Assembly (NCBI GenBank): GCA_000585055.1
Contig: JEMX01000097.1
Coordinates: 1 to 64,000 of the forward strand
From: Candidatus Accumulibacter appositus
GTDB taxonomy: Bacteria > Pseudomonadota > Gammaproteobacteria > Burkholderiales > Rhodocyclaceae
DNA: 64,000 nucleotides
Direction of reading: 5' to 3'
The notes under the pieces were generated by a model. The model was given only the letters and a program-made list of their open reading frames with translations, did no database searches and was not told the DNA's origin. Within the stretch, counting starts at the first letter, position 1, and each line of letters starts with the position of its first letter. The position numbers and the translations under genes are program-made. Of this stretch, positions 1-13,330 are shown in pieces.

Positions 1-704
1 AGCATGTGGCTGCGCACGAAGTCGGTCAGGTTGCCGACCGATTTCATCGATACCGTCTGATGAAAGAGGTCCAGCGCCTGCTCGTTGTCGATGCCGAAGC
101 GGCGCCGGAACCAGGCGCCGTAGGGTGGAAAGCTGTCGAAGACTTCGGCAGCCGGCCGCCGCAGCCGCTTCCTCAGCGCGGCGATGTCCGAGCCGAAGTG
201 GGCGAAATCGCCGGTTATCGACAAGTCGCGTTCGGCGGCGACGAAGAAGCGTGCCGGCTGCCCCTGCGCGTCCTTGATCCAGAACACCTGCGCCAGCGTC
301 ACCGTCTGGTCGTAGCCGGCGTTGTGAAAGACGCCGAGGATCACCGAGTAGTTGTTGTGGTCGCGCAATGCCACCGGCCGCGCCGTACCGCTGACTTCGT
401 TGCGCTCGGACTTGTAGTGCCCGAGCACGTAGGAGCGCAGGGTCCGCTCGCGGCTGTCGGCACCGGCAGCCTTGTTGTAGGCGATGCGCTGTGCCGGCAC
501 CAGCAAGGTGGTCACCGCATCGACCAGCGTCGACTTGCCCGAACCGATGTCGCCGGTGAGCAGCGAGTTCTGCCCGCCCGGATTGAGCGTCCACACGCGC
601 CCGTCGAAAGTGCCCCAGTTGAAAACTTCCAGGCGCTGCAGGCGAAAACCGGAAAGCGTGTCGTCGGCGACGAAATCGAGCCCGAGGCTCTGCGGATCAT
701 TCAT
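1..704 (-). CDS. jetC: JetC: SMC/MukB-like ATPase of a Wadjet system (partial)
   Basis: This is the N-terminal 234 codons of an SMC-like ATPase; the gene leaves the window at base 1, so no stop is visible. I read the frame from the reverse complement. The ATG at 704-702 overlaps the jetB stop by 8 bases (ATGAATGA), a translational-coupling arrangement. The protein opens with an RLQRLEVFNWGTFDG-type segment (about residues 21-35), typical of MukB/JetC heads, and has a Walker A motif GDIGSGKST at residues 51-59. In Wadjet, JetC is the ATP-driven loop-extruding subunit that works with JetA (kleisin) and JetB (KITE) and recruits the JetD nuclease to cut closed circular plasmids. JetD would be expected just beyond the left edge. 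The family call is secure from Walker A plus the two neighbours. Confidence 0.9.
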   Translation of the reverse strand, partial: MNDPQSLGLDFVADDTLSGFRLQRLEVFNWGTFDGRVWTLNPGGQNSLLTGDIGSGKSTLVDAVTTLLVPAQRIAYNKAAGADSRERTLRSYVLGHYKSERNEVSGTARPVALRDHNNYSVILGVFHNAGYDQTVTLAQVFWIKDAQGQPARFFVAAERDLSITGDFAHFGSDIAALRKRLRRPAAEVFDSFPPYGAWFRRRFGIDNEQALDLFHQTVSMKSVGNLTDFVRSHM

Positions 705-1563
705 CGGAGGCGGCCTTGCTCTTTGTACTCTTCGTGCTCTTCGGACTCTGCGTGCCCGTTCCCGCTTCGCCACTCTCCCCCGCCAACAGCGAGCGGTAGG
801 CGGCCAGGCGCTGATCGAATTCGGCCAGCCACTGCGCATCGACGAAGGACTTGAGGATTCGCCGCACCTCGAAAGTCGCCGTCTGGCCGCTTTGCACTTT
901 CAGGCGACGCACGAAGCCGAGATCGACGACCTTGCCGAGATAGAAATCGATCTGGTCGATCAGCCGCGCTTCGTTACTGCCTTCGTGCAGGAAGACGCGC
1001 AGCAGCTCGACGACTTCGTCGCGCGAGAGAACCAGGCGCGTATCGCCGCCACCGGCGTCGAACTCGGCCAGCTTCTTGCGCAGCAGCGCCAGCAGCAGGC
1101 TGACCGGAAACGACAGCGGGCGCCGCGGGACCAGCCGCGGCAACCGCGCCGCGTCGCCCTCCTCTGCTGCAGCCTCCGGCCGCGAGCGCAGAAAGGCATA
1201 GCCCTCGGCCTCGTCGAGCACCAGTTCAAGGTCGAGTACCGCGACGTAGTCGCGCACCCGTGCCTGCAGGCTGAGCAACGCATTCCACTGCGCCGGCCCC
1301 GCCTCCTGGTAGAGCACGCCCTTGAGCAGCGGGATGACCAGCGCCGAAAGGTCGGGGCTCTCGGGGGTGGACGTCGCGGCAGCCGAGCTGTCAAGGTCGA
1401 GCGGTGCTTCCTGGTTTTTGTTTGCTGCCACTATCCCCACCCCACGAACTTCACTGGCGGCGGCCGTGCCGCAGCTGTTTCTCGTTGATTTCTTGATCGA
1501 CTCGGGTCGCGACGCCGTTGCTGGCGAGTTCCAGGCACGCCGCCCGATCCGCCAAGGCAGCAT
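697..1563 (-). CDS. jetB: JetB: DUF4194 KITE-like subunit of Wadjet
   Basis: DUF4194-type protein, the small winged-helix (KITE) subunit of the Wadjet condensin, bridging the JetC ATPase and the JetA kleisin. The recognisable domain starts near residue 70 (LSALVIPLLKGVLY) and runs to about residue 265 (FVDAQWLAEF). The first 43 or so residues look non-coding in composition, so the true start may be a GTG at 1440 or 1431. A 1431 start is preceded by a GGGG stretch; either would leave a gap of about 150 bp after the antitoxin gene. The C-terminus is a short low-complexity KSTKSTKSK tail encoded by 9-bp near-repeats. The stop overlaps the jetC start. In canonical Wadjet loci jetB follows jetA directly; here a SIR2 gene and a toxin-antitoxin pair separate them. 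Confidence 0.85.
   Translation of the reverse strand: MLPWRIGRRAWNSPATASRPESIKKSTRNSCGTAAASEVRGVGIVAANKNQEAPLDLDSSAAATSTPESPDLSALVIPLLKGVLYQEAGPAQWNALLSLQARVRDYVAVLDLELVLDEAEGYAFLRSRPEAAAEEGDAARLPRLVPRRPLSFPVSLLLALLRKKLAEFDAGGGDTRLVLSRDEVVELLRVFLHEGSNEARLIDQIDFYLGKVVDLGFVRRLKVQSGQTATFEVRRILKSFVDAQWLAEFDQRLAAYRSLLAGESGEAGTGTQSPKSTKSTKSKAASDE
715..750. repeat. 9-bp near-tandem repeats in the jetB tail
   Basis: Three degenerate copies of a 9-bp unit ending in CTCTTC or CTCTGC encode the KST-KST-KSK tail of JetB. The period is a multiple of three, so copy-number change would lengthen or shorten the tail without a frameshift. Confidence 0.5.
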
Positions 1564-1587
1564 CGTCTACATAAGCAAGGGCTTGCG

Positions 1588-1788
1588 CTACTTGACTGCC
1601 TCGATGATCTCGATCTCGTGCTTCAGCAACTCATTGACCAGATCGGACAAATCAACCCCTTTGGCTTCGGCCTTGGCGGCGAGATAGCACTCCACCTGCT
1701 TATCGAGGTAAACCGGCAAGCGGAAGGCCGCATCCGGCGCGTAGAACTTGCCGCGTTCGCCCTTGCTGAAATCGTAGTGATCTTTCAT
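1588..1788 (-). CDS. BrnA/CopG-like antitoxin
   Basis: Small protein of 66 residues from the ATG at 1788. It begins MKDHYDFSKGERGKFY and continues with a FRLPVYLD beta-strand and a DLSDLVNELLKHEIE helix, the layout of ribbon-helix-helix antitoxins found next to BrnT toxins. The antitoxin would bind and neutralise the upstream toxin and repress the pair. I prefer ATG 1788 over the GTG at 1809 because GAGGG lies at a normal distance before it. It sits 23 bp after the toxin stop and 24 bp or more upstream of jetB. It is in the same orientation as the Wadjet genes, so it is probably transcribed with them as well as from any promoter of its own. Confidence 0.75.
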   Translation of the reverse strand: MKDHYDFSKGERGKFYAPDAAFRLPVYLDKQVECYLAAKAEAKGVDLSDLVNELLKHEIEIIEAVK

Positions 1789-1811
1789 CAGGCCACCCTC
1801 ACTGTGCACCG

Positions 1812-2120
1812 CTAGCGCGGCATATTCTCGTAATCGCGGAGCTCGTCTCTATCCGCCCTCCGCGCCGAAATGATCCGCAGCTTCATCACCGCTGGCGCGA
1901 TCCATTGCGAACTGTGAACCACTACCAGCGTCTGGCCATTCGCTGCACGACCGACTGTCACCCAACGGTCCTCGTGCGTGCTGTGCCCATGATCGAAGAT
2001 GGTCAGCGCCAGCGGATCTCGGAACACCGAACTAGCCAGCCGAAACGACACCCCATGTTTGACGAGATTCGTGCGTGCCTTGTTCGTGTTCCAATCGAAA
2101 TCGTAGAGCGTAGCCGACAT
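1812..2120 (-). CDS. brnT: BrnT family ribonuclease toxin
   Basis: 102-residue protein with the BrnT pattern: FDWNTNKARTNLVKHGVSF at residues 8-26, VFRDPLA near residue 32, a DHGHSTHEDRWVTVG segment, and a C-terminal RIISARRADRDELRDYE. BrnT toxins are RelE-fold ribonucleases that inhibit translation. The downstream ribbon-helix-helix gene is the matching antitoxin. In classical brnTA operons the toxin comes first, as here. The pair lies between the SIR2 gene (160-bp gap) and jetB, inside an otherwise continuous Wadjet operon, and may be a stabilising module or an inserted addiction element. Confidence 0.85.
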   Translation of the reverse strand: MSATLYDFDWNTNKARTNLVKHGVSFRLASSVFRDPLALTIFDHGHSTHEDRWVTVGRAANGQTLVVVHSSQWIAPAVMKLRIISARRADRDELRDYENMPR

Positions 2121-2280
2121 GCTTCAGTTTCCTGGCAACAGGTCCATCTTCGTTTTCCGCGGTACGCCTGCCGCTCCCAATTATTCCGCGCCACTCACGA
2201 CGAGGCCCGCCGCCAAGCTGAGGATACCACGGGTCATACCGACCACCCCGCTGCGACCCGGCAGGGAGAAACGCACTCAC

Positions 2281-5200
2281 CTACCCAAGCCCAAGTCTCG
2301 CAACCAGCTCGCGAATTTTGTGCTCCAAGTCGGGCGGGAGGCCCGCCTGCAGGAGCCTTTCCGCAATTTCATGCCCCCGGGTCCAGACGGAATGGGGCGT
2401 TTGAGCGCAGCCTAGGTAGATCAGCAAGCGTGCCACTGCCGCTGGATGCCGAGCAGGCAATTTTCCCTCCGTGAGATCGCGGACCACCGAGCAGTGCTGC
2501 AGTAGCGGTGGCATGTCCACAGCAAGCCCAACGGCCTCCTCGAACACCGCCGGCAACTGCGGCAGCCACTCCAGCATTCGGGCGACCTCCCCTTGCTTCA
2601 GCATCGTCGGAACGAAATTCAAGCGATTTTTCCAATACCGCTTAAGCCAGCGTTGCCATAGTTCTTGCTGCTGGCTTTCGTTCATTTGGCGCAGTTGCCC
2701 TCCCACTCCAGACGCAAAGAGGAGGCCAACCTCAGCGCCTCCTTGCCTGAGAAGGCAGGCAACCCACTCCTTGACCGGAACTGGCGCGGCGGAAACGAGG
2801 ATTGCTACGAAATACTCGACAAATCGTTCACGTAGCGGCGCCAAGTCGCTATTGATACGCCCGACGGCCCCGAGAAGGGCTTTATCCATCGATATAGCGA
2901 GAACGGGATCAGGCCAGCACGAGGCCAGAAAACCGTCCCAAACAGCCTGAAGCTCTCTTCGATCGGCGGCGTCAAAACACGGCAACATGCGCTCCCGTGT
3001 CCATTCCTCATCGGCATCCATCAGCAACGCGACGCGGCTCGCAAGAACAGCGCGACCGAGGCGTCCTGGAAGCGTCTGATCGTCGACTATGGCCGACAGG
3101 GCACGGCGATAGTCTTCATTCAGGGTGGCAGGCATAACCTCGTGATGTTGCCGCCAAATCCGGAGACTACCCACCAAGAATTCAACCAGAACGCCCTCCG
3201 CGCGTTGTTGCGCCAACTGGAGGTAGCCTGCTGCATCCGTGTCTAGTTGCTCGTCGCGGTCAAGGTGTCGCCAAAGAGCCGTCGCCACCTCGTTAGCCTG
3301 CGAGAGAAAGTGCGAGGCATAAGGCTTGCCTTCATTGATGACCAGCAGGTAAATCACATCGGCCACCACCCGCAAGTGTTCCCGATACAGTTCTGTCCTG
3401 GCGAGCAAGACCGAGAGCTTCCGAAATTCGTCCTCGTCGAGATTTCTTTCCCGCCATCCGCGCCCCAGCGCTACCCATAGATCAGTCGCCCATTCGCCAG
3501 CGCCTGCCATCGCCTTAGCCAGATCAACGCTCCAGCCGAAATCGGTTTTCGCCGCGTCACCTACGGCGCGACCCAGACCGAAGCGGTCCGGGCCAAGGGA
3601 GCGTGTGCCCTCAACCTCCAGCAGTTGGGGAAGCCAGTCGGCTGCCGGCCTAGACAACAATTCGTCCGCCTGCCATGAACTACGCCATCCGGCGACGACC
3701 GATCCGATTCTGTACCACCAGCCAGTGCTCTCGTTCCGTGTCATCCCCGGGTATCGGGCGCGTAGATGGTCGAGCTCTTTGCTTGCCAAAGCACATGTGC
3801 CGTCGGCGGATTGCAGGGCATCGAGCCAATCGAACCGCTCGTCGACGCTAATCTGATCCTCGCGTGGCTCTCCCACGTCCGGCGATCGACACGCCAGCAC
3901 AGCAGCAATCAGCTCCGCTCGTTTCGCCTTGCTGCTCGCTGGATAAATCGAACGTACCGTGCTGAGGGTTTCGGGGCACTCCGCCGCTTCACGTAGTTGT
4001 ACGTGCGCCAGCAGCCAGTCCAACTTCTGGTCGGCCGCCAGATCGGCGCGCGCGGCGAGCGTGAAAATGGACAGGCGGCGAAGCAGCGGTGCTTCCGACC
4101 TGGCCAACTGATCGCACCACCCGGCAGCGACGACCGGCCGGTTACTTGCCAGCCAGTGCAGGCAACCGCGCGCGGCATTGACCAGGACGTGAAATACCCC
4201 GGATGAACTGCCATCGTGCTCAATTGCCTCGGTGTCGGGTGGAGGGAGGTCCATCAAGTCCAGCGCGCACTCCGGCGGAATCTGAAGGCGCCGCACGGCA
4301 TGGTATTCCTCCAGCCGAGCGATGACCTGCCTGAGAAGCGGTTCAGCGACCAGCGCCAGTTTTGGTTGAAGTCCTCTGTCCCAAAGCTCGCTGACCCAAA
4401 AGCCTTCATCGTGCCACTCGTTATCCATTTGCAGATGGCTTTTCGCCATGTGATCAAAGACCCGCAAGAGATCTTCGAGCGCATCGTCCCGAATACAACG
4501 ATCACCGAGGGCCATCAACACGTCCCCGTTGGGCTTCGCGGAAGACGTGGTCAGCAGCACCGAAATCCAGCGTGACCACGCTCGAGGTGGCATCGACGCC
4601 CCCTCGGCGCGAACAAACCCGAACCCCAATTCCATCCAGAAGTCCGGATGCACTCGCGACTTATGTGCCGAAATCAACGCCAGGACCTGATCCGGAAAGC
4701 GCGCCGCGAAATACCTTCCTAGCCAACGCGCCAGGCAGTGGTCCCGCTCGCTCAACCGGCCGCCTTCCACAAACAGACCGTCCAGATGGCCACGCCGGTC
4801 GAGCCAGCTCAGCCAATCTGGCAAACGAGCAGCAGCAGCAAAGAACCGCGTCGTCGACACATCCTTCAGTGCGTACTCGATGATCGCCACGGCATCGCCA
4901 ATTTCAGGCGGTGGTTTCGTGGCAATCGCAGAAACGTCGTGCTGCCAATCGAAAATGCTCCGTCTGACCCAGTCGGACAGGCAGGCCACCCCCTCGTAAA
5001 GCGCTGAGTGATCGCGACTGCTCGGCTGCTCGTAAACGACCGGCTCGATTCCGAGAATTGACCAGCGCTGAAGATCGTCGTCGGCTCCGACCAGGGCAAA
5101 CCGCTGTTTGGCGTGGCCCGCCGGAAGCGCTCGCGCCAAGTAGCTGACGATGAGGTCGTTGTGGCTGTAGCCGACAAAGAAGACCGTGAAATGGCGAAAG

Positions 5201-5757
5201 AGGTCAACGAGAAAACGCCTGGCCCAACCCTCGACCAGATACGCCCGGCCGAAGTCCGCATCAGTCAATACCATCTCGTCAGGGTGCGTAAGATCGCCAT
5301 GAACGTGCACAATGCCGCTAAAGCTTCGACCCAAAGGCAGCGCAGGGGCGCGGAAGCACTCGGGCACGGCACCACCATAGACATCGGGCGCCGCGTGTTC
5401 AAACAGTGGATCATAGTTGGTCGTCACAATCCGAACTTGTTCAGCAGAAGAGAACAACCGCAAGAGATCCCGATGAAGCGTGGTCGGCGCCGCCGTACCG
5501 TCGCCGTGCAGCAAGTCGCGAGCAATCGAATGAACCTTCGGCCCGCTATCTTGAAGCCTCCCAAGAAAACTGTCTTCCCGCTCGCTGTCCGACCGGACTT
5601 CACCGGTACCGTCCGCAATCAGCTCCGCCAGCCGCGCGAAGTCCGGAAGATTGGCGGGAGCCCCCCTCGACACACCTGCACCGGCGAAAACCACTAACCG
5701 GTTGTCGCGCAAGGCGGTCAGGAGGGGTTCAGGAAAGTCGCACTGCCCAATCTTCAC
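2281..5757 (-). CDS. SIR2-domain protein with long C-terminal helical region
   Basis: 1158-residue protein. The N-terminal third of about 300 residues is a SIR2-like NAD-binding domain: GAGVS at 26-30, TTNYD at 112-116 (predicted catalytic N114), HVHGD at 151-155 (predicted catalytic H153) and VGYSHND at 195-201. In known defence proteins such domains hydrolyse NAD+ to abort infection. The remaining 850 or so residues carry no motif I recognise beyond repeated alpha-helical W/L-rich segments, similar to the DUF4020-type regions that often follow SIR2 domains; I would treat this as a sensor or oligomerisation region. The start is GTG at 5757 with GGGAG upstream, only 21 bp after the jetA stop, so it is co-transcribed with jetA. 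By eye its codon use is less GC-rich than jetA, suggesting separate acquisition. No signal peptide or transmembrane segment is evident. Confidence 0.85.
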   Translation of the reverse strand: MKIGQCDFPEPLLTALRDNRLVVFAGAGVSRGAPANLPDFARLAELIADGTGEVRSDSEREDSFLGRLQDSGPKVHSIARDLLHGDGTAAPTTLHRDLLRLFSSAEQVRIVTTNYDPLFEHAAPDVYGGAVPECFRAPALPLGRSFSGIVHVHGDLTHPDEMVLTDADFGRAYLVEGWARRFLVDLFRHFTVFFVGYSHNDLIVSYLARALPAGHAKQRFALVGADDDLQRWSILGIEPVVYEQPSSRDHSALYEGVACLSDWVRRSIFDWQHDVSAIATKPPPEIGDAVAIIEYALKDVSTTRFFAAAARLPDWLSWLDRRGHLDGLFVEGGRLSERDHCLARWLGRYFAARFPDQVLALISAHKSRVHPDFWMELGFGFVRAEGASMPPRAWSRWISVLLTTSSAKPNGDVLMALGDRCIRDDALEDLLRVFDHMAKSHLQMDNEWHDEGFWVSELWDRGLQPKLALVAEPLLRQVIARLEEYHAVRRLQIPPECALDLMDLPPPDTEAIEHDGSSSGVFHVLVNAARGCLHWLASNRPVVAAGWCDQLARSEAPLLRRLSIFTLAARADLAADQKLDWLLAHVQLREAAECPETLSTVRSIYPASSKAKRAELIAAVLACRSPDVGEPREDQISVDERFDWLDALQSADGTCALASKELDHLRARYPGMTRNESTGWWYRIGSVVAGWRSSWQADELLSRPAADWLPQLLEVEGTRSLGPDRFGLGRAVGDAAKTDFGWSVDLAKAMAGAGEWATDLWVALGRGWRERNLDEDEFRKLSVLLARTELYREHLRVVADVIYLLVINEGKPYASHFLSQANEVATALWRHLDRDEQLDTDAAGYLQLAQQRAEGVLVEFLVGSLRIWRQHHEVMPATLNEDYRRALSAIVDDQTLPGRLGRAVLASRVALLMDADEEWTRERMLPCFDAADRRELQAVWDGFLASCWPDPVLAISMDKALLGAVGRINSDLAPLRERFVEYFVAILVSAAPVPVKEWVACLLRQGGAEVGLLFASGVGGQLRQMNESQQQELWQRWLKRYWKNRLNFVPTMLKQGEVARMLEWLPQLPAVFEEAVGLAVDMPPLLQHCSVVRDLTEGKLPARHPAAVARLLIYLGCAQTPHSVWTRGHEIAERLLQAGLPPDLEHKIRELVARLGLG

Positions 5758-5778
5758 TGCAGCATCTCCCGGTAACCC

Positions 5779-7239
5779 TTACCCACTGACAAAGATCACC
5801 CGCGACAGCCGCGCCTGCTTGGTGTACTCCTTGCCGTCCGCCCCGGCGCCGCGCCAGGCGATCGACTCGCTGACGTCTTCGTCGATCACCGTCTTGAAGC
5901 TGTCGCCGGCGAGCTGCAGGTAAGCGACCAGCTCGGCGAGGCCGTGTTCGAGGGGGCGCGTTTCGCAGAGTTCGCGCAGGGTGACCTGCGTACGCTCCTG
6001 CAAGGCCTGGCGGATGTGCCGGGCGAGCTGCGCGCGGTCGACGACCACTTGCGAGAACAGCACCGCGGCATCGACGTCTTCGTCGCCGGCCTCGATGGCC
6101 AGATCGGCGATCGACGGCTTGATCGGTGGCGTGTATAGGGGCCGCTCCATGGGCAGTTCGATGGCCGCGGCGGTGTCGGCGATGCTCATCACCGCGTTGC
6201 CCAGCGGCGGCGTCTCGCGGACGGCCAGGGCCTTGGCTTCGATGCCATGCAGGATGTCCATGATGCGGCGGTTTTCCAGCCAGGCCTGGTCGTCGAGGAA
6301 GCGACGCAACTGCTGCGAGAGCTGGGCGACCGTGCGCTGCGTGTGCTCACCGGCTTCGAGCCAGTCGTAGTGCACGCGGCGGGTGCGCGCCTCGGGCCGC
6401 AGTTCGGCGACAGCCGGCAGGGTCAGCACGCGTTCGAGCAGCGCGGAAAGTTCCTCCTGGCGGCTGCTCGACATCAGGAAGTCCCAGAAAGCGCGGAAGC
6501 TGCGGCCCTGGTCGGAGTCGGAAATGGCGTCGCGCTCGCCCATGATTTCCTCGAGCAAGGCGCCTTTGGCGCCTTCCCAGAGCGCGATGCGCTCGCGCAC
6601 GCGGCGGTCGAGACCGCGAAAATTGTGCTCGACTTCGCGAAAGTCGGTGAGCAGCTCGCGGGCCATGGCGACGAACTGCTGGAAGCGGTCGCGCAGGGCG
6701 CTGTCGTCGAGCATCGGCATGTCACCCGAGAGCACGCGCGCGATCTCGGCGTCGATGTCGTCGCGGCGGCGCTGCAACTCGGCGATGCGCGTCTGCGGGT
6801 CGGTCTCGCTGCCTTCGCTCATCTGCTTGAGCAGCTCGAAGAGGGTCAGCAGGCGCGACTCGGTGCCGACGAAGCTGCGCGCGGCGAGCGTGTCGAGCCA
6901 GGCGATGGCCTTCTCGGTGGCCGGCGTGAGGTCGAAATGCGGCTCGTCCGAGCCCTGCGCGTAAAACTTGCGCAGCCAGCCCTTGTCGTTGGCCGCCCAG
7001 TCGTTGAGGTAATCGAGCGCCGCTTTCGGGAACAGCTCGGCGCCGAAGCGGTCGCGTAGCGCAAACAGCTCGTCTTCCAGCGCTTCGGCCAGATCGGCCT
7101 GGGCCATCACCCGCACGTTCGGCGCAATGAACACGCGCTGCAGGAAGCTCGCCACCAGCGCAGCGTGATCCGAACGCAGCAGCCGCCAGGCCGGATGATT
7201 CTGGCGCAGCAGGTCGAGGGTGGCGTAGTCGAGGTTCAT
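5779..7239 (-). CDS. jetA: JetA: DUF3375 kleisin-like subunit of Wadjet
   Basis: DUF3375 protein of 486 residues, the kleisin-like subunit of the Wadjet (JetABCD) plasmid-restriction complex. The start is ATG 7239 (MNLDYATLDLLRQNHPAW), which matches the usual N-terminus of the family; an upstream in-frame codon at 7311 adds a non-conserved 24-residue leader. Typical features are the HPAWRLLRSDHAALVASFL segment at residues 11-31, the central coiled-coil-like region rich in ELQRRRDDIDAEI, and EVEHNFRGLDRRVRE. It is the first gene of the operon and is followed after 21 bp by the SIR2 gene rather than by jetB. Confidence 0.9.
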   Translation of the reverse strand: MNLDYATLDLLRQNHPAWRLLRSDHAALVASFLQRVFIAPNVRVMAQADLAEALEDELFALRDRFGAELFPKAALDYLNDWAANDKGWLRKFYAQGSDEPHFDLTPATEKAIAWLDTLAARSFVGTESRLLTLFELLKQMSEGSETDPQTRIAELQRRRDDIDAEIARVLSGDMPMLDDSALRDRFQQFVAMARELLTDFREVEHNFRGLDRRVRERIALWEGAKGALLEEIMGERDAISDSDQGRSFRAFWDFLMSSSRQEELSALLERVLTLPAVAELRPEARTRRVHYDWLEAGEHTQRTVAQLSQQLRRFLDDQAWLENRRIMDILHGIEAKALAVRETPPLGNAVMSIADTAAAIELPMERPLYTPPIKPSIADLAIEAGDEDVDAAVLFSQVVVDRAQLARHIRQALQERTQVTLRELCETRPLEHGLAELVAYLQLAGDSFKTVIDEDVSESIAWRGAGADGKEYTKQARLSRVIFVSG

Positions 7240-10684: not shown

Positions 10685-10718
10685 AACATTCCCATGAACT
10701 CTTCATTTGGAGACTGCC

Positions 10719-11132
10719 ATGGGCAACGCCGCGCGCGTCCTGTCACCCGCCAACCCGGAAACCAGGGAAATGTCCACGGCTGGCTTGCGGGCTTTTTTCA
10801 ACATCGCCCGCGACTGGCAGCTGGACGTCGACCAGCAATTGGTGCTGCTCGGTGCCCCGGGCCGCTCGACCTTCTTCAAGTGGAAATCGGCGCCGGCCGA
10901 AGCGCGCCTGGGCAAGGATACGCTGGAGCGGCTTTCCTACCTGCTCGGCATCTACAAGGCGCTGCAGATTCTGCTCCCCGAGCCGTCGGCAGCCGACGCC
11001 TGGGTGCGCAAGCCGAATCAGGCGCCACTGTTCGGCGGCCGCAGCGCGCTCGAACGGATGCTCGGCGGCAACGTCGGCGACCTCTTCGCGGTGCGCCAAT
11101 ATCTCGACGCCATGCGCGGGACCTGGGCTTGA
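10719..11132 (+). CDS. Xre/MbcA/ParS-type antitoxin of a RES module
   Basis: 137-residue protein of the Xre-MbcA-ParS antitoxin family. The N-terminal half carries a helix-turn-helix-like region (LRAFFNIARDWQLDVDQQLVLLG...STFFKWK). The C-terminal half holds the toxin-binding domain (LLGIYKALQILLP, WVRKPNQAPLFGGRSALERML), the pattern of antitoxins paired with RES toxins. ATG 10719 is preferred over the in-frame TTG at 10707 because TTGGAGA then serves as its ribosome-binding site. The stop overlaps the toxin start (TTGA), so the two are translationally coupled. Confidence 0.88.
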   Translation: MGNAARVLSPANPETREMSTAGLRAFFNIARDWQLDVDQQLVLLGAPGRSTFFKWKSAPAEARLGKDTLERLSYLLGIYKALQILLPEPSAADAWVRKPNQAPLFGGRSALERMLGGNVGDLFAVRQYLDAMRGTWA

Positions 11133-11818
11133 CCGGGTCTGCCCAGGCGAGCGTTCGCCTGCACTGGAACCCCGCGTACAGGGTGATTTCGACGCGCTAT
11201 CCGGCGGTCAGCGTGTTCGACCGGGTCGCCTCGGCCGACGACTTCGACGCGCTCTACGCACTCGAAGCATTGACCAATGACCGTGTGCGTGACGAACTTG
11301 GCCAGATCGAGTTGGTGCCGCGGACGGAGCGGCGCTTCGGTCCGGGCAGCGGCCCGATCATGGCCGCTTTCACGCACCCGAATCCGCTCGGCAGCCGCTT
11401 CAGCGACGGCAGCTATGGCGTCTTCTACTGCGCTCGCGATGTTGAAACAGCGATCGCAGAAACTGTCCATCACTCGGCGCGCTTCCTGGCAGCGACCAGC
11501 GAGCCGGCGATGAAGCTGCAGATGCGTCTGTACACGGTCAAGGCGGCCGGCCAGGTGATCGACCTGCGCAAGCCGGGCATCGACGCGGCGGCCATATTCG
11601 ACCGCAGTGACTACGGCCATTCGCAGGCGCTCGCCCGGCGTCTGCGCAGCGTCGGCGCGACCGGCGCAGTCTATCCCTCAGTGCGGCGAGCGAAAGGACA
11701 GTGCCTGGCCGCATTCACGCCGCAACTGCTGCACAACTGCGCACACGCCGCCTATCTGCAGTATTCCTGGAACGGCCACGAAATCGACGCCGTCTTCGAG
11801 TTTTCGCGACGCGCCTGA
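11129..11818 (+). CDS. RES-domain NAD+-degrading toxin
   Basis: 229-residue RES-domain protein starting at TTG 11129, which overlaps the antitoxin stop by four bases. Domain landmarks are AYRVIS (R18), the core GSRFSDGSYGVFY at residues 88-100, and an acidic TAIAET helix (E106, E111), matching the Arg/Tyr/Glu active-site layout of the family. RES toxins such as MbcT and the Pseudomonas and Photorhabdus RES proteins degrade NAD+, causing stasis or death. The in-frame ORF extends upstream to 10661 but that part only shadows the antitoxin. With the SIR2 gene, this gives two putative NAD+-depleting effectors within 10 kb. Confidence 0.87.
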   Translation: MTGSAQASVRLHWNPAYRVISTRYPAVSVFDRVASADDFDALYALEALTNDRVRDELGQIELVPRTERRFGPGSGPIMAAFTHPNPLGSRFSDGSYGVFYCARDVETAIAETVHHSARFLAATSEPAMKLQMRLYTVKAAGQVIDLRKPGIDAAAIFDRSDYGHSQALARRLRSVGATGAVYPSVRRAKGQCLAAFTPQLLHNCAHAAYLQYSWNGHEIDAVFEFSRRA

Positions 11819-11920: not shown

Positions 11921-13330
11921 TTATTTTTCTAGCTTGTCGGCTTTGCCTGACTCCTGATTCCAGGCGACAAACTCCAATGGCCGGAGCCGGAAGCGGATGG
12001 CATTGCCTTCGTGCAGATTTTTGAATTCTTCGGCAAGCAGGGCGACGAACTTCGCACGATCCCCCTCGGCGACAGTGGCTGGAATGACAGCGCGCATGGC
12101 CGCCGTGCTGGCGGCCCTGCCTCCACGCACTATCGATCGCACCGCTTCGGTCAGCTCTGCCCGGTAACGCAGACGAAAGAGGTCCGGCGGGATCAATTGT
12201 TGCCTTACCGCCACATACTGCTGACAGGAACGCTCGTAGGCCCAGACGAAAACATCGCGCAGCAATTCGATCCGCGCCAGTTCATAGACGCCGATCATGG
12301 CATCAATGTAGGCCTGCTCGGGCACGTCGATGAACGACAGCGGGCAGAGGTTGCAGCGGATCAGCGGGATATTTGCCGCGAGGCGTGAAACGCGCTTGTT
12401 TACGTCCTCGAAGGCCTGCAAATAGGGGAGATGAGCCATCAGAAAAAACGCCTGCTCGAACGGATCGCGAATTTCCCCCGCCATGTCGAGGACGATGCCG
12501 AGCAACGCGTCCAGGCGTTGCGGCAGGGCGATGGGCAGATAGACGCTGCCACTGATTTCCACGGCCCGCTTACGCACCCGGCCGCCGGCCTGTGGATCCC
12601 GCAACAGGCCATCGGAAAGCAAGGCATGCAGGGCGAGAATGGTCTCGGTGTTCACGCCGACACCATCCACCTCGCGCACCAGGTATTCGATGGCGGCCTT
12701 GTGGTTGAGGATCATCTGGGTTTCCAGCCCATCCTTGCCTTCGGCCGCCAGGCCGTATTCGATCAGGCGCTCGGTATCGAGCCTGGTGTAGGTATTACCC
12801 TCCAGCCGCGACGAGGCCCACGAGAGGTCGATCAGCAGCCGATTCATGATGTCGCGGGCAAAGGTGCCCGCGGCGGACTGCTCGGCCGGCGATCGCCCCA
12901 GCGAATGCAGTTGAGCACGCAGGGCCGCGGGCAGGTAGAAGGTTTCGTTGGGGCGATAGGCTTCGAGAAACCGGATGTCGTAACTCACCGGCCGGCGTTG
13001 ATGCAGCGGCTGCCGTACATACGCCTTGATGTCTTCGCCTTCGGGAGACAGCGGGACATAGATTTCGCCGCTGGCCTGACCAGGAATTAGCGCGGGTACG
13101 ATGTCCCCCTCGCCTGCCACCGGCGCCAGCCGGTATTTCAGTGCCCTGCCTTCGCCAGCGGTGACAATACGCGCCAGCGCTGCCAGTGAGGCAAGCCGGC
13201 GCTGGAGTGTGCGGCGGGAAATCTCATTGCCCACGGAGCGCAACAAGGCTTCCAGACCGATGCCGTCCGGGTGACGCGCGATCAGTTCGGCGATTTCATT
13301 CAGCTCCCCTGGGGAAACGATTTTGGGCAT
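11921..13330 (-). CDS. Fic family protein with winged-helix N-terminus
   Basis: 469 residues. An N-terminal helix-turn-helix (ELIARHPDGIGLEALL...SRRTLQRRL, residues 15-46) precedes a Fic domain with an inhibitory helix motif SSRLEGN at 173-179. The core motif reads QAFEDVNKRVSR (305-316) where active AMP transferases have HPFxDGNGRxxR, so the catalytic histidine position is glutamine. The surrounding NIPLIRCNLCPLSF and VPEQAYIDAMIGVYEL match a subgroup of large bacterial Fic proteins in which, as I recall, this substitution is common. It may therefore not AMPylate, or may use another chemistry. The upstream region contains repeated GCGCCATAT half-sites suited to autoregulation by the N-terminal domain. 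Confidence 0.85.
   Translation of the reverse strand: MPKIVSPGELNEIAELIARHPDGIGLEALLRSVGNEISRRTLQRRLASLAALARIVTAGEGRALKYRLAPVAGEGDIVPALIPGQASGEIYVPLSPEGEDIKAYVRQPLHQRRPVSYDIRFLEAYRPNETFYLPAALRAQLHSLGRSPAEQSAAGTFARDIMNRLLIDLSWASSRLEGNTYTRLDTERLIEYGLAAEGKDGLETQMILNHKAAIEYLVREVDGVGVNTETILALHALLSDGLLRDPQAGGRVRKRAVEISGSVYLPIALPQRLDALLGIVLDMAGEIRDPFEQAFFLMAHLPYLQAFEDVNKRVSRLAANIPLIRCNLCPLSFIDVPEQAYIDAMIGVYELARIELLRDVFVWAYERSCQQYVAVRQQLIPPDLFRLRYRAELTEAVRSIVRGGRAASTAAMRAVIPATVAEGDRAKFVALLAEEFKNLHEGNAIRFRLRPLEFVAWNQESGKADKLEK

Follow-up and report, generated by a model that had tools for sequence, protein, structure and literature searches.

Gene content of the interrupted jet locus

Wadjet has been described as a self-contained four-gene system, jetABCD. 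In Candidatus Accumulibacter appositus (assembly GCA_000585055.1, 218 contigs; genome G000 below) the jet genes of a type I Wadjet operon lie at the start of contig JEMX01000097.1 and include, between jetA and jetB, a large gene for a SIR2-DUF4020 protein. The window analyzed here is the first 64 kb of this 97.8-kb contig. All genes of the locus are co-oriented on the minus strand in the order jetA, SIR2-DUF4020 gene, BrnT gene, small putative antitoxin gene, jetB and the 5' end of jetC. This order had been proposed in an initial annotation of the window and was confirmed by profile matches and by its recurrence in three genomes.

jetA (5779..7239, minus strand) starts with ATG at 7239 and encodes a kleisin-like subunit of 486 amino acids (aa) with the DUF3375 domain of type I Wadjet (Pfam PF11855, E=1.4e-158; PADLOC JetA1, 1.1e-227). 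It is followed by a 21-bp spacer (5758..5778), in which a GGGAG-like ribosome-binding site was read by eye, and by the SIR2 gene (2281..5757), which has a GTG start and encodes 1158 aa. The product has an N-terminal NADase-type SIR2 domain (SIR2_2, PF13289, 1.1e-18) and a long C-terminal region, the putative sensor, with DUF4020 (PF13212, 4e-8) close to its end. A gap of 160 bp (2121..2280) precedes the gene for a BrnT-family ribonuclease toxin (1812..2120, 102 aa; PF04365, 4.7e-23). A shared TGGTATCCT-like motif, seen by eye in this gap, could be the -10 element of a separate brnT promoter. The putative BrnT antitoxin gene (1588..1809) encodes 73 aa; a start at the internal ATG (1788) would give 66 aa. 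It is called by its position after brnT, and the 73-aa protein matched no family, BrnA included, among the Pfam, PADLOC and NCBIfam profiles.

jetB (697..1431; about 244 aa from a GTG at about 1431) encodes a DUF4194/MksE-like protein (PF13835, 7.2e-44; PADLOC JetB1, 8.6e-93). It overlaps by 8 bp the gene for the SMC-like ATPase, jetC (1..704, ATG at 704; AAA_29, 2.1e-25; PADLOC JetC1, 3.4e-130), which runs off the contig after 234 aa. Both the 21-bp spacer and the 8-bp overlap are as first annotated. The distance from the jetA stop to the jetB start is about 4.35 kb, and the G+C content of the insert is about 0.58-0.63, compared with 0.67-0.69 for jetA.

The jetA-jetB junction in the genus and beyond

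A genus sample of 28 genomes was searched, and jetA was matched in 17 and jetB in 17. Junction counts are based on the 16 genomes whose jetA is full-length and of the type found here (68-100% identity). The SIR2-BrnT-antitoxin block lies between jetA and jetB in 3/16 genomes, representing three species: G000, G001 (Ca. Accumulibacter regalis, L104) and G022 (Ca. Accumulibacter meliphilus, L087). The jetA-SIR2 spacer has the same sequence in G000 and G001 and is likewise 21 bp long in G022. The putative antitoxin is kept in G001, G022 and, in shortened form, G014. G001 has the complete operon, jetA-SIR2-BrnT-antitoxin-jetB-jetC-jetD, with a jetC of 1145 aa as called that has P-loop and Walker B matches, and a jetD of 401 aa (JetD_C, 1e-56). 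Full-length members of the SIR2 family were found in 3/28 genus genomes, always in the jet junction and at no other site. BrnT homologues occur in 17/28, and those at sites other than the three jet loci show no more than 68% identity.

jetA and jetB are adjacent in 6/16 genomes (G016, G009, G043, G017, G020 and G005), with 156-191 bp between the edges of their hidden Markov model (HMM) matches. G016 has an empty site in which the jetA and jetB matches are about 15 bp apart. An ion-channel gene upstream of jetA is common to G000, G022, G014 and G016, with no match in the G001 stretch; because it likewise precedes jetA in G016, this site is read as syntenic. Short inserts are present in 2/16 genomes: a 623-bp gap in G010, in which no open reading frame (ORF) above 81 aa was seen, and a 912-bp gap with a Uma2 gene in G012. 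In G014 both contigs stop at the junction and the cut-short antitoxin lies beside jetB. The contig break itself (L059 end, L060 start) has repeated AACGGTCATGAC-type elements. A REP-type transposase-like gene was seen by eye to precede jetB in G004 and G006. jetD was not detected after jetC in G019 (L070), and only a C-terminal piece follows it in G021 (L068); Wadjet may be decaying in these two genomes. G008, and G043 in a second copy, have a more divergent jet type with 27-28% identity in JetA, which is uninterrupted (185 bp).

DUF3375 was found in 42/369 genomes of a class sample (E 0.001) and 38/398 genomes of a phylum sample (E 1e-40). After removal of the source genome, fragments, weak matches, one locus ending beside jetA and duplicates, 33 and 32 jet loci outside the genus were fetched (65 in all), of which 31 and 29 (60 in all) contain both jetA and jetB. 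The gap between them exceeds 1 kb in 0/60 loci and 650 bp in 6/60 (L193, L230, L238, L244, L245 and L248; HMM-edge gaps 0.69-0.91 kb). The SIR2 family is in none of the 65 loci.

Other junctions of these operons also hold inserts, between jetB and jetC in L194 (2.96 kb) and between jetC and jetD in L230 (1.44 kb), L211 (0.94 kb) and L210 (0.47 kb). Insert contents were read in a small number of loci, from Wadjet operons alone. In L245 the jetA-jetB junction is occupied by a HEPN-type/nucleotidyltransferase pair; a stop splits the jetA there, and this operon may therefore be decayed. L194 gave a weaker nucleotidyltransferase match, together with an opposite-strand Uma2 gene, between jetB and jetC, and L211 a weak PanE-like match. 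The protein between jetC and jetD in L230 (L230:7076-8485) combines Schlafen-AlbA_2, an ATPase-like part and a winged helix, a make-up shared with one class of BREX (bacteriophage exclusion) back-up effectors described in PMC12839542. A protein of about 250 aa and of unrecognised family recurs between jetA and jetB in L230 (L230:2354-3100) and L244 (L244:7999-8754) and in L233 (L233:585-1325), where jetB was not found, with pieces in L238 and L248; the L230 copy has no Pfam match.

In the genus, the 3' end of jetA was also found to recur immediately ahead of jetB, and this second copy is read as a footprint of insertion. In tests with 500 single-base shuffles each, which covered G000, G001, G004, G006, G010, G012, G014, G021 and G022, 0/500 reached the score of this copy in G022, G014 and G021. 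The copy is clear in G022 and G014, and in G021 a jetA 3' remnant precedes jetB although jetA is elsewhere in that genome. The possible decayed copy in the window (1436..1488, minus strand) is weak (15/500), and none was detectable in G001 (237/500), G010, G012, G006 or G004 (range 178-432/500). When the three SIR2 inserts were searched for repeats, the jetA 3' end was found directly repeated in G022 only (36 nt, 81%, 4417 bp apart). The remaining listed repeats are short and internal, and no inverted repeats were found at the ends of the three inserts, so a transposon was rejected.

The SIR2-DUF4020 family and its neighbors

A pattern-based scan of the genomes of 84,980 species yielded 68 confirmed loci of the SIR2 family from many phyla. 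The 46 long-match loci were taken for residue counts and a tree, leaving aside the other 22, which are mostly shorter or weaker matches; 45 have open frames at the matched coordinates and L130 does not. Asn114 and His153 are invariant in 46/46 rows (the window protein and 45 long homologues) and correspond to N133 and H171 of DSR2 (PMC10973363). This result agrees with the initial annotation, which had predicted an NADase-type effector.

The nearest PADLOC family of the SIR2 protein is Dsr1 (1.5e-49, best stretch residues 6-277). On the NCBIfam Dsr1 equivalog model (NF041818) the window protein scores 222 bits (best stretch residues 7-300), and four family members score 222-287 bits. Since the cut-off is 1400 bits, the gene is not Dsr1 proper. 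Dsr1 proper is found at non-jet sites in Accumulibacter G004, G012 and G014, with 1918-1989 bits, and these three proteins are separate from the SIR2-family clade in the tree. Similarity to Dsr1 extends beyond the SIR2 domain: residues 471-1153 of the L123 protein align to Dsr1 573-1251, and a C-terminal stretch of the G012 Dsr1 matches the SIR2-family profile. The family is therefore best called a distant sister of Dsr1. DUF4020 was matched in the two SIR2-family members scanned and was not reported for the two Dsr1 proteins scanned. Matches to solved structures (ThsA, KomC, DSR2 and others) are confined to the SIR2 domain, with profile matches at residues 7-224.

Jet genes lie near only 2/68 family loci, both from Accumulibacter (tblastn and profiles), although many loci end at contig edges and the available flank limits what their absence means. 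The initial annotation had suggested a search for this family beside jet genes in unrelated taxa, and none was found there. The order jetA-SIR2-jetB was likewise absent outside Candidatus Accumulibacter, both from the 60 jet loci and from the 68 family loci. Because 66/68 loci lack jet genes in the available stretch, the SIR2 protein needs no linked Wadjet and is not an obligate Wadjet subunit. A phage origin is not supported, as there was no match to the SIR2 gene among 50,697 phage records at E 1e-5. Plasmid records matched in 60/72,556 cases, none over 80% of the query; jetA was found in 10/72,556.

The neighborhoods of 43 long loci outside Accumulibacter were examined (129 ORFs of 120-1300 aa, at most two per side). 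Twenty of these ORFs were scanned singly against PADLOC, and 10 had no match at the limits used. In L095 (Acidobacteria) BrxC, an AbiLi/PDC-M38-type protein, SIR2 and PglX are encoded in one direction. L116 (Acidobacteria) has BrxC, a DUF4276 gene, one opposite-strand gene, SIR2 and, 7 bp on, PglX. The SIR2 proteins of these two loci form a clade (support 100). In L123 (Hoeflea; L123:4099-10561) the SIR2 gene begins 87 bp after a type I methylase gene. Next come a repeated C-terminal part of the methylase, 81% identical over 187 aa, and a GmrSD-type gene. The repeat resembles the jetA 3' repeat and is a possible insertion footprint. At least 3/43 long loci are thus nested in BREX or type I restriction-modification operons. 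When the 68 loci were searched by tblastn with nine proteins of these kinds, BrxC and PglX were found only in L095 and L116 and the type I methylase only in L123, with a weak HsdR fragment in L097. Other neighbors are HmaC (L105), a type IIG enzyme (L119), AbiEii (L092), AbiLii (L089) and a PD-Lambda-1 protein (L135). A small operon partner shared across the SIR2 family was sought by eye among the ORFs, many of them apparently spurious, of about 20 loci, and no recurring family was found. Dsr1 proper shows a similar placement in Accumulibacter G004 (L080:5296-14594), where only 2 bases separate it from the HsdS gene that closes an HsdR-HsdM-HsdS run.

Purifying selection acts on the SIR2 gene, and its reading frames are intact. 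Synonymous divergence (dS) was compared among three genomes only, and the Nei-Gojobori values, some close to saturation, are rough. Between G001 and G022 dS is 0.41 for SIR2 and 0.39 for jetA, near-equal values which indicate that the two genes were inherited together; the ratio of nonsynonymous to synonymous divergence (dN/dS) is 0.29 for SIR2 and 0.06 for jetA. Between G000 and G001 dS is 1.08 for SIR2, 0.31 for jetA and 0.04 for BrnT, and between G000 and G022 it is 1.17, 0.28 and 0.49, respectively. SIR2 identity between G000 and G001 is 92% over the first 50 columns of the alignment and falls to 67-84% in the four blocks that follow and to 32-72% beyond them, compared with about 94-98% for JetA, JetB and the start of JetC. 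Since SIR2 dS is high next to that of jetA and BrnT and the G000 and G001 spacers are identical, an exchange of the SIR2 interior is probable. This is most simply explained by homologous recombination that replaced the greater part of the gene in the G000 line. The SIR2 proteins of G000, G001 and G022 still form one clade (SH-aLRT, an approximate likelihood ratio test, 100; quick tree), which suggests that the donor was a related allele.

Elsewhere in the window, about 3.5 kb upstream of jetA, lies a RES-Xre pair (10707-11818, plus strand) consisting of an Xre/MbcA/ParS antitoxin gene and then a RES-domain toxin gene. A gene for a Fic-domain protein of 469 aa is at 11921-13330 (minus strand).

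Interpretation and relation to known systems

We consider it moderately likely that the SIR2-DUF4020 gene and the BrnT pair form a nested cassette in a type I Wadjet operon, whose Dsr1-like NADase works autonomously and adds a second layer of defense, an abortive one. In this reading the cassette was inserted at the jetA 3' end and is most likely co-transcribed with the jet genes. JetABC are proposed to extrude DNA loops, and JetD cuts small circles (PMC10586767); loop extrusion is how Wadjet finds small circular DNA before cutting it. The SIR2 protein, made from the jet transcript, would probably act alone. In DSR2 the C-terminal region binds a phage protein, upon which the SIR2 domain is opened and nicotinamide adenine dinucleotide (NAD+) is lost (PMC10973363). 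In this general manner the long C-terminal region of the SIR2 protein would sense an invader product, the N-terminal domain would open and NAD+ would be depleted. The gene thus probably kills infected cells by destroying NAD+. The BrnT-antitoxin pair is probably a separate module that stabilizes the insert. We infer co-transcription, the NADase activity, the trigger and the benefit of stacking.

Several observations weigh against the autonomous cassette. Dsr1 reportedly halts phage without killing its host cell (PMC10952713), which makes the word abortive uncertain for a Dsr1 relative. The C-terminal region of the SIR2 protein was matched by sequence to no solved structure. No JetD was found in the source assembly (0/1 genome), where jetC is cut by the contig end. 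A promoter consensus scan of the locus found no sigma-70 promoter, and a terminator scan gave 6 sites compared with a shuffle mean of 6.3. Because terminators are no commoner than in shuffles and no promoter was found, these scans neither show nor exclude a single transcript. Finally, jetA and jetB are on separate contigs in 4/16 genomes (G004, G006, G019 and G021). In G006 both genes are about 28-30 kb from the facing contig ends, so jet genes need not form one operon in the genus. The distance in G004 is only about 2-4.5 kb, so a long insert may lie between the two genes there.

The initial annotation had proposed a back-up triggered when Wadjet is blocked. Such gating of the SIR2 protein by Wadjet is possible. 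A Jet subunit would hold the SIR2 protein inactive and release it when an invader inhibits Wadjet, much as PrrC, an anticodon nuclease, is silenced by its linked type I restriction enzyme and freed by a phage anti-restriction factor (PMC2610378). Back-up effectors have also been proposed for BREX (PMC12839542). The SIR2 family is nested in three DNA-targeting kinds of operon (Wadjet, BREX and type I restriction-modification), Dsr1 proper follows hsdS closely in G004, and SIR2 has been kept in the jet operon across the divergence of three species, all of which would fit. However, about half of the SIR2 C-terminal region differs between G000 and G001 while their Jet proteins are nearly identical. 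A protein that reads Jet is expected to be more constrained, and this divergence thus speaks against a Jet-binding sensor. The 66/68 family loci with no Wadjet nearby point the same way, and we regard gating as unlikely.

The SIR2-BrnTA block could also have settled in an insertion-tolerant jetA-jetB junction with no functional tie, in a genus where Wadjet is perhaps decaying. The junction is interrupted or lost in 10/16 genomes (3 with the SIR2 block, 2 with short inserts, 1 with a contig break and 4 with jetA and jetB on separate contigs), 6/60 loci outside the genus have enlarged jetA-jetB gaps, jetD is missing near jetC in G019 and partial in G021, and a jetA 3' copy flanks the G022 insert. 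The initial annotation had named two findings that together would favor such an unlinked insert: an intact junction in close relatives, and a SIR2-brnTA block with mobile ends at unrelated sites. The intact junction was found (6/16). The second holds in part, since 66/68 family loci are without jet genes, but within the genus the family occupies the jet junction only and its inserts have no terminal inverted repeats. Against a chance passenger, the SIR2 frames are intact and under purifying selection, the jet genes of G001 are intact, and the effector type fits defense. We therefore think it quite improbable that the insert is a mere hitch-hiker. A misjoin of unrelated contigs, for which the 218 contigs of this metagenome-derived genome might speak, is ruled out together with a chance gene order, as the assemblies of G000, G001 and G022 share the order and matching junctions and the site lies within a 97.8-kb contig.

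The autonomous cassette would place a conserved NADase inside a system known for its four genes. Nesting in Wadjet, BREX and restriction operons, together with the other effector types in a few Wadjet junctions, suggests that stacking a second layer into DNA-targeting operons is perhaps a general design. More speculatively, and we would not rate the chance as high, these operons may be platforms for interchangeable suicidal effectors. The SIR2-DUF4020 plug-in would then fire once its DNA-targeting host is overrun or inhibited, and recombination within a conserved operon would swap the sensor to follow changing invaders. The divergent SIR2 allele, set in an operon that is conserved in its other parts, is a natural experiment on sensor recognition.

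JetA has the DUF3375 and JetB the DUF4194 domain by which type I Wadjet is recognized, and jetA, jetB and jetC here, with jetD in G001, are in canonical order and of the canonical families. The difference is the 3.5-kb SIR2 gene and the brnT-antitoxin pair between jetA and jetB, which are absent from the 60 jet loci outside the genus. As the initial annotation had supposed, no described Wadjet type with this order was found in the open-licence literature searched, which is weak evidence. Like Dsr1 and DSR2, the SIR2 protein is a large single protein with an N-terminal SIR2 domain, a catalytic Asn and His and a long C-terminal region, but unlike Dsr1 it falls below the equivalog cut-off, in a separate clade.

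Lamassu with a SIR2-type LmuA likewise pairs an SMC-like protein with a SIR2 effector in a single defense locus (PMC10586767). In Lamassu, however, the effector is a component of the system, whereas Wadjet already includes a nuclease, JetD, and members of the SIR2 family also occur away from Wadjet. The locus is not Lamassu: by far the best PADLOC matches of the jet genes are JetA1, JetB1 and JetC1, and those to LmuA (8.7e-4) and LmuB (2.1e-3) are weak.

BREX operons contain HEPN, PIN and Schlafen-type suicidal effectors as back-ups (PMC12839542), and effector classes resembling these lie in the Wadjet junctions of L245, L230 and, more weakly, L194. The main text of that paper concerns BREX rather than Wadjet and does not name SIR2, NADase or DUF4020. 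PrrC, encoded in type I restriction operons, is also a suicidal effector that accompanies a DNA-targeting system (PMC2610378, PMC3874168). PrrC is a tRNA nuclease with reported control by its host system, whereas here such control would be hypothetical. The parts of the Accumulibacter locus are of known kinds; what appears new is the way they are arranged.

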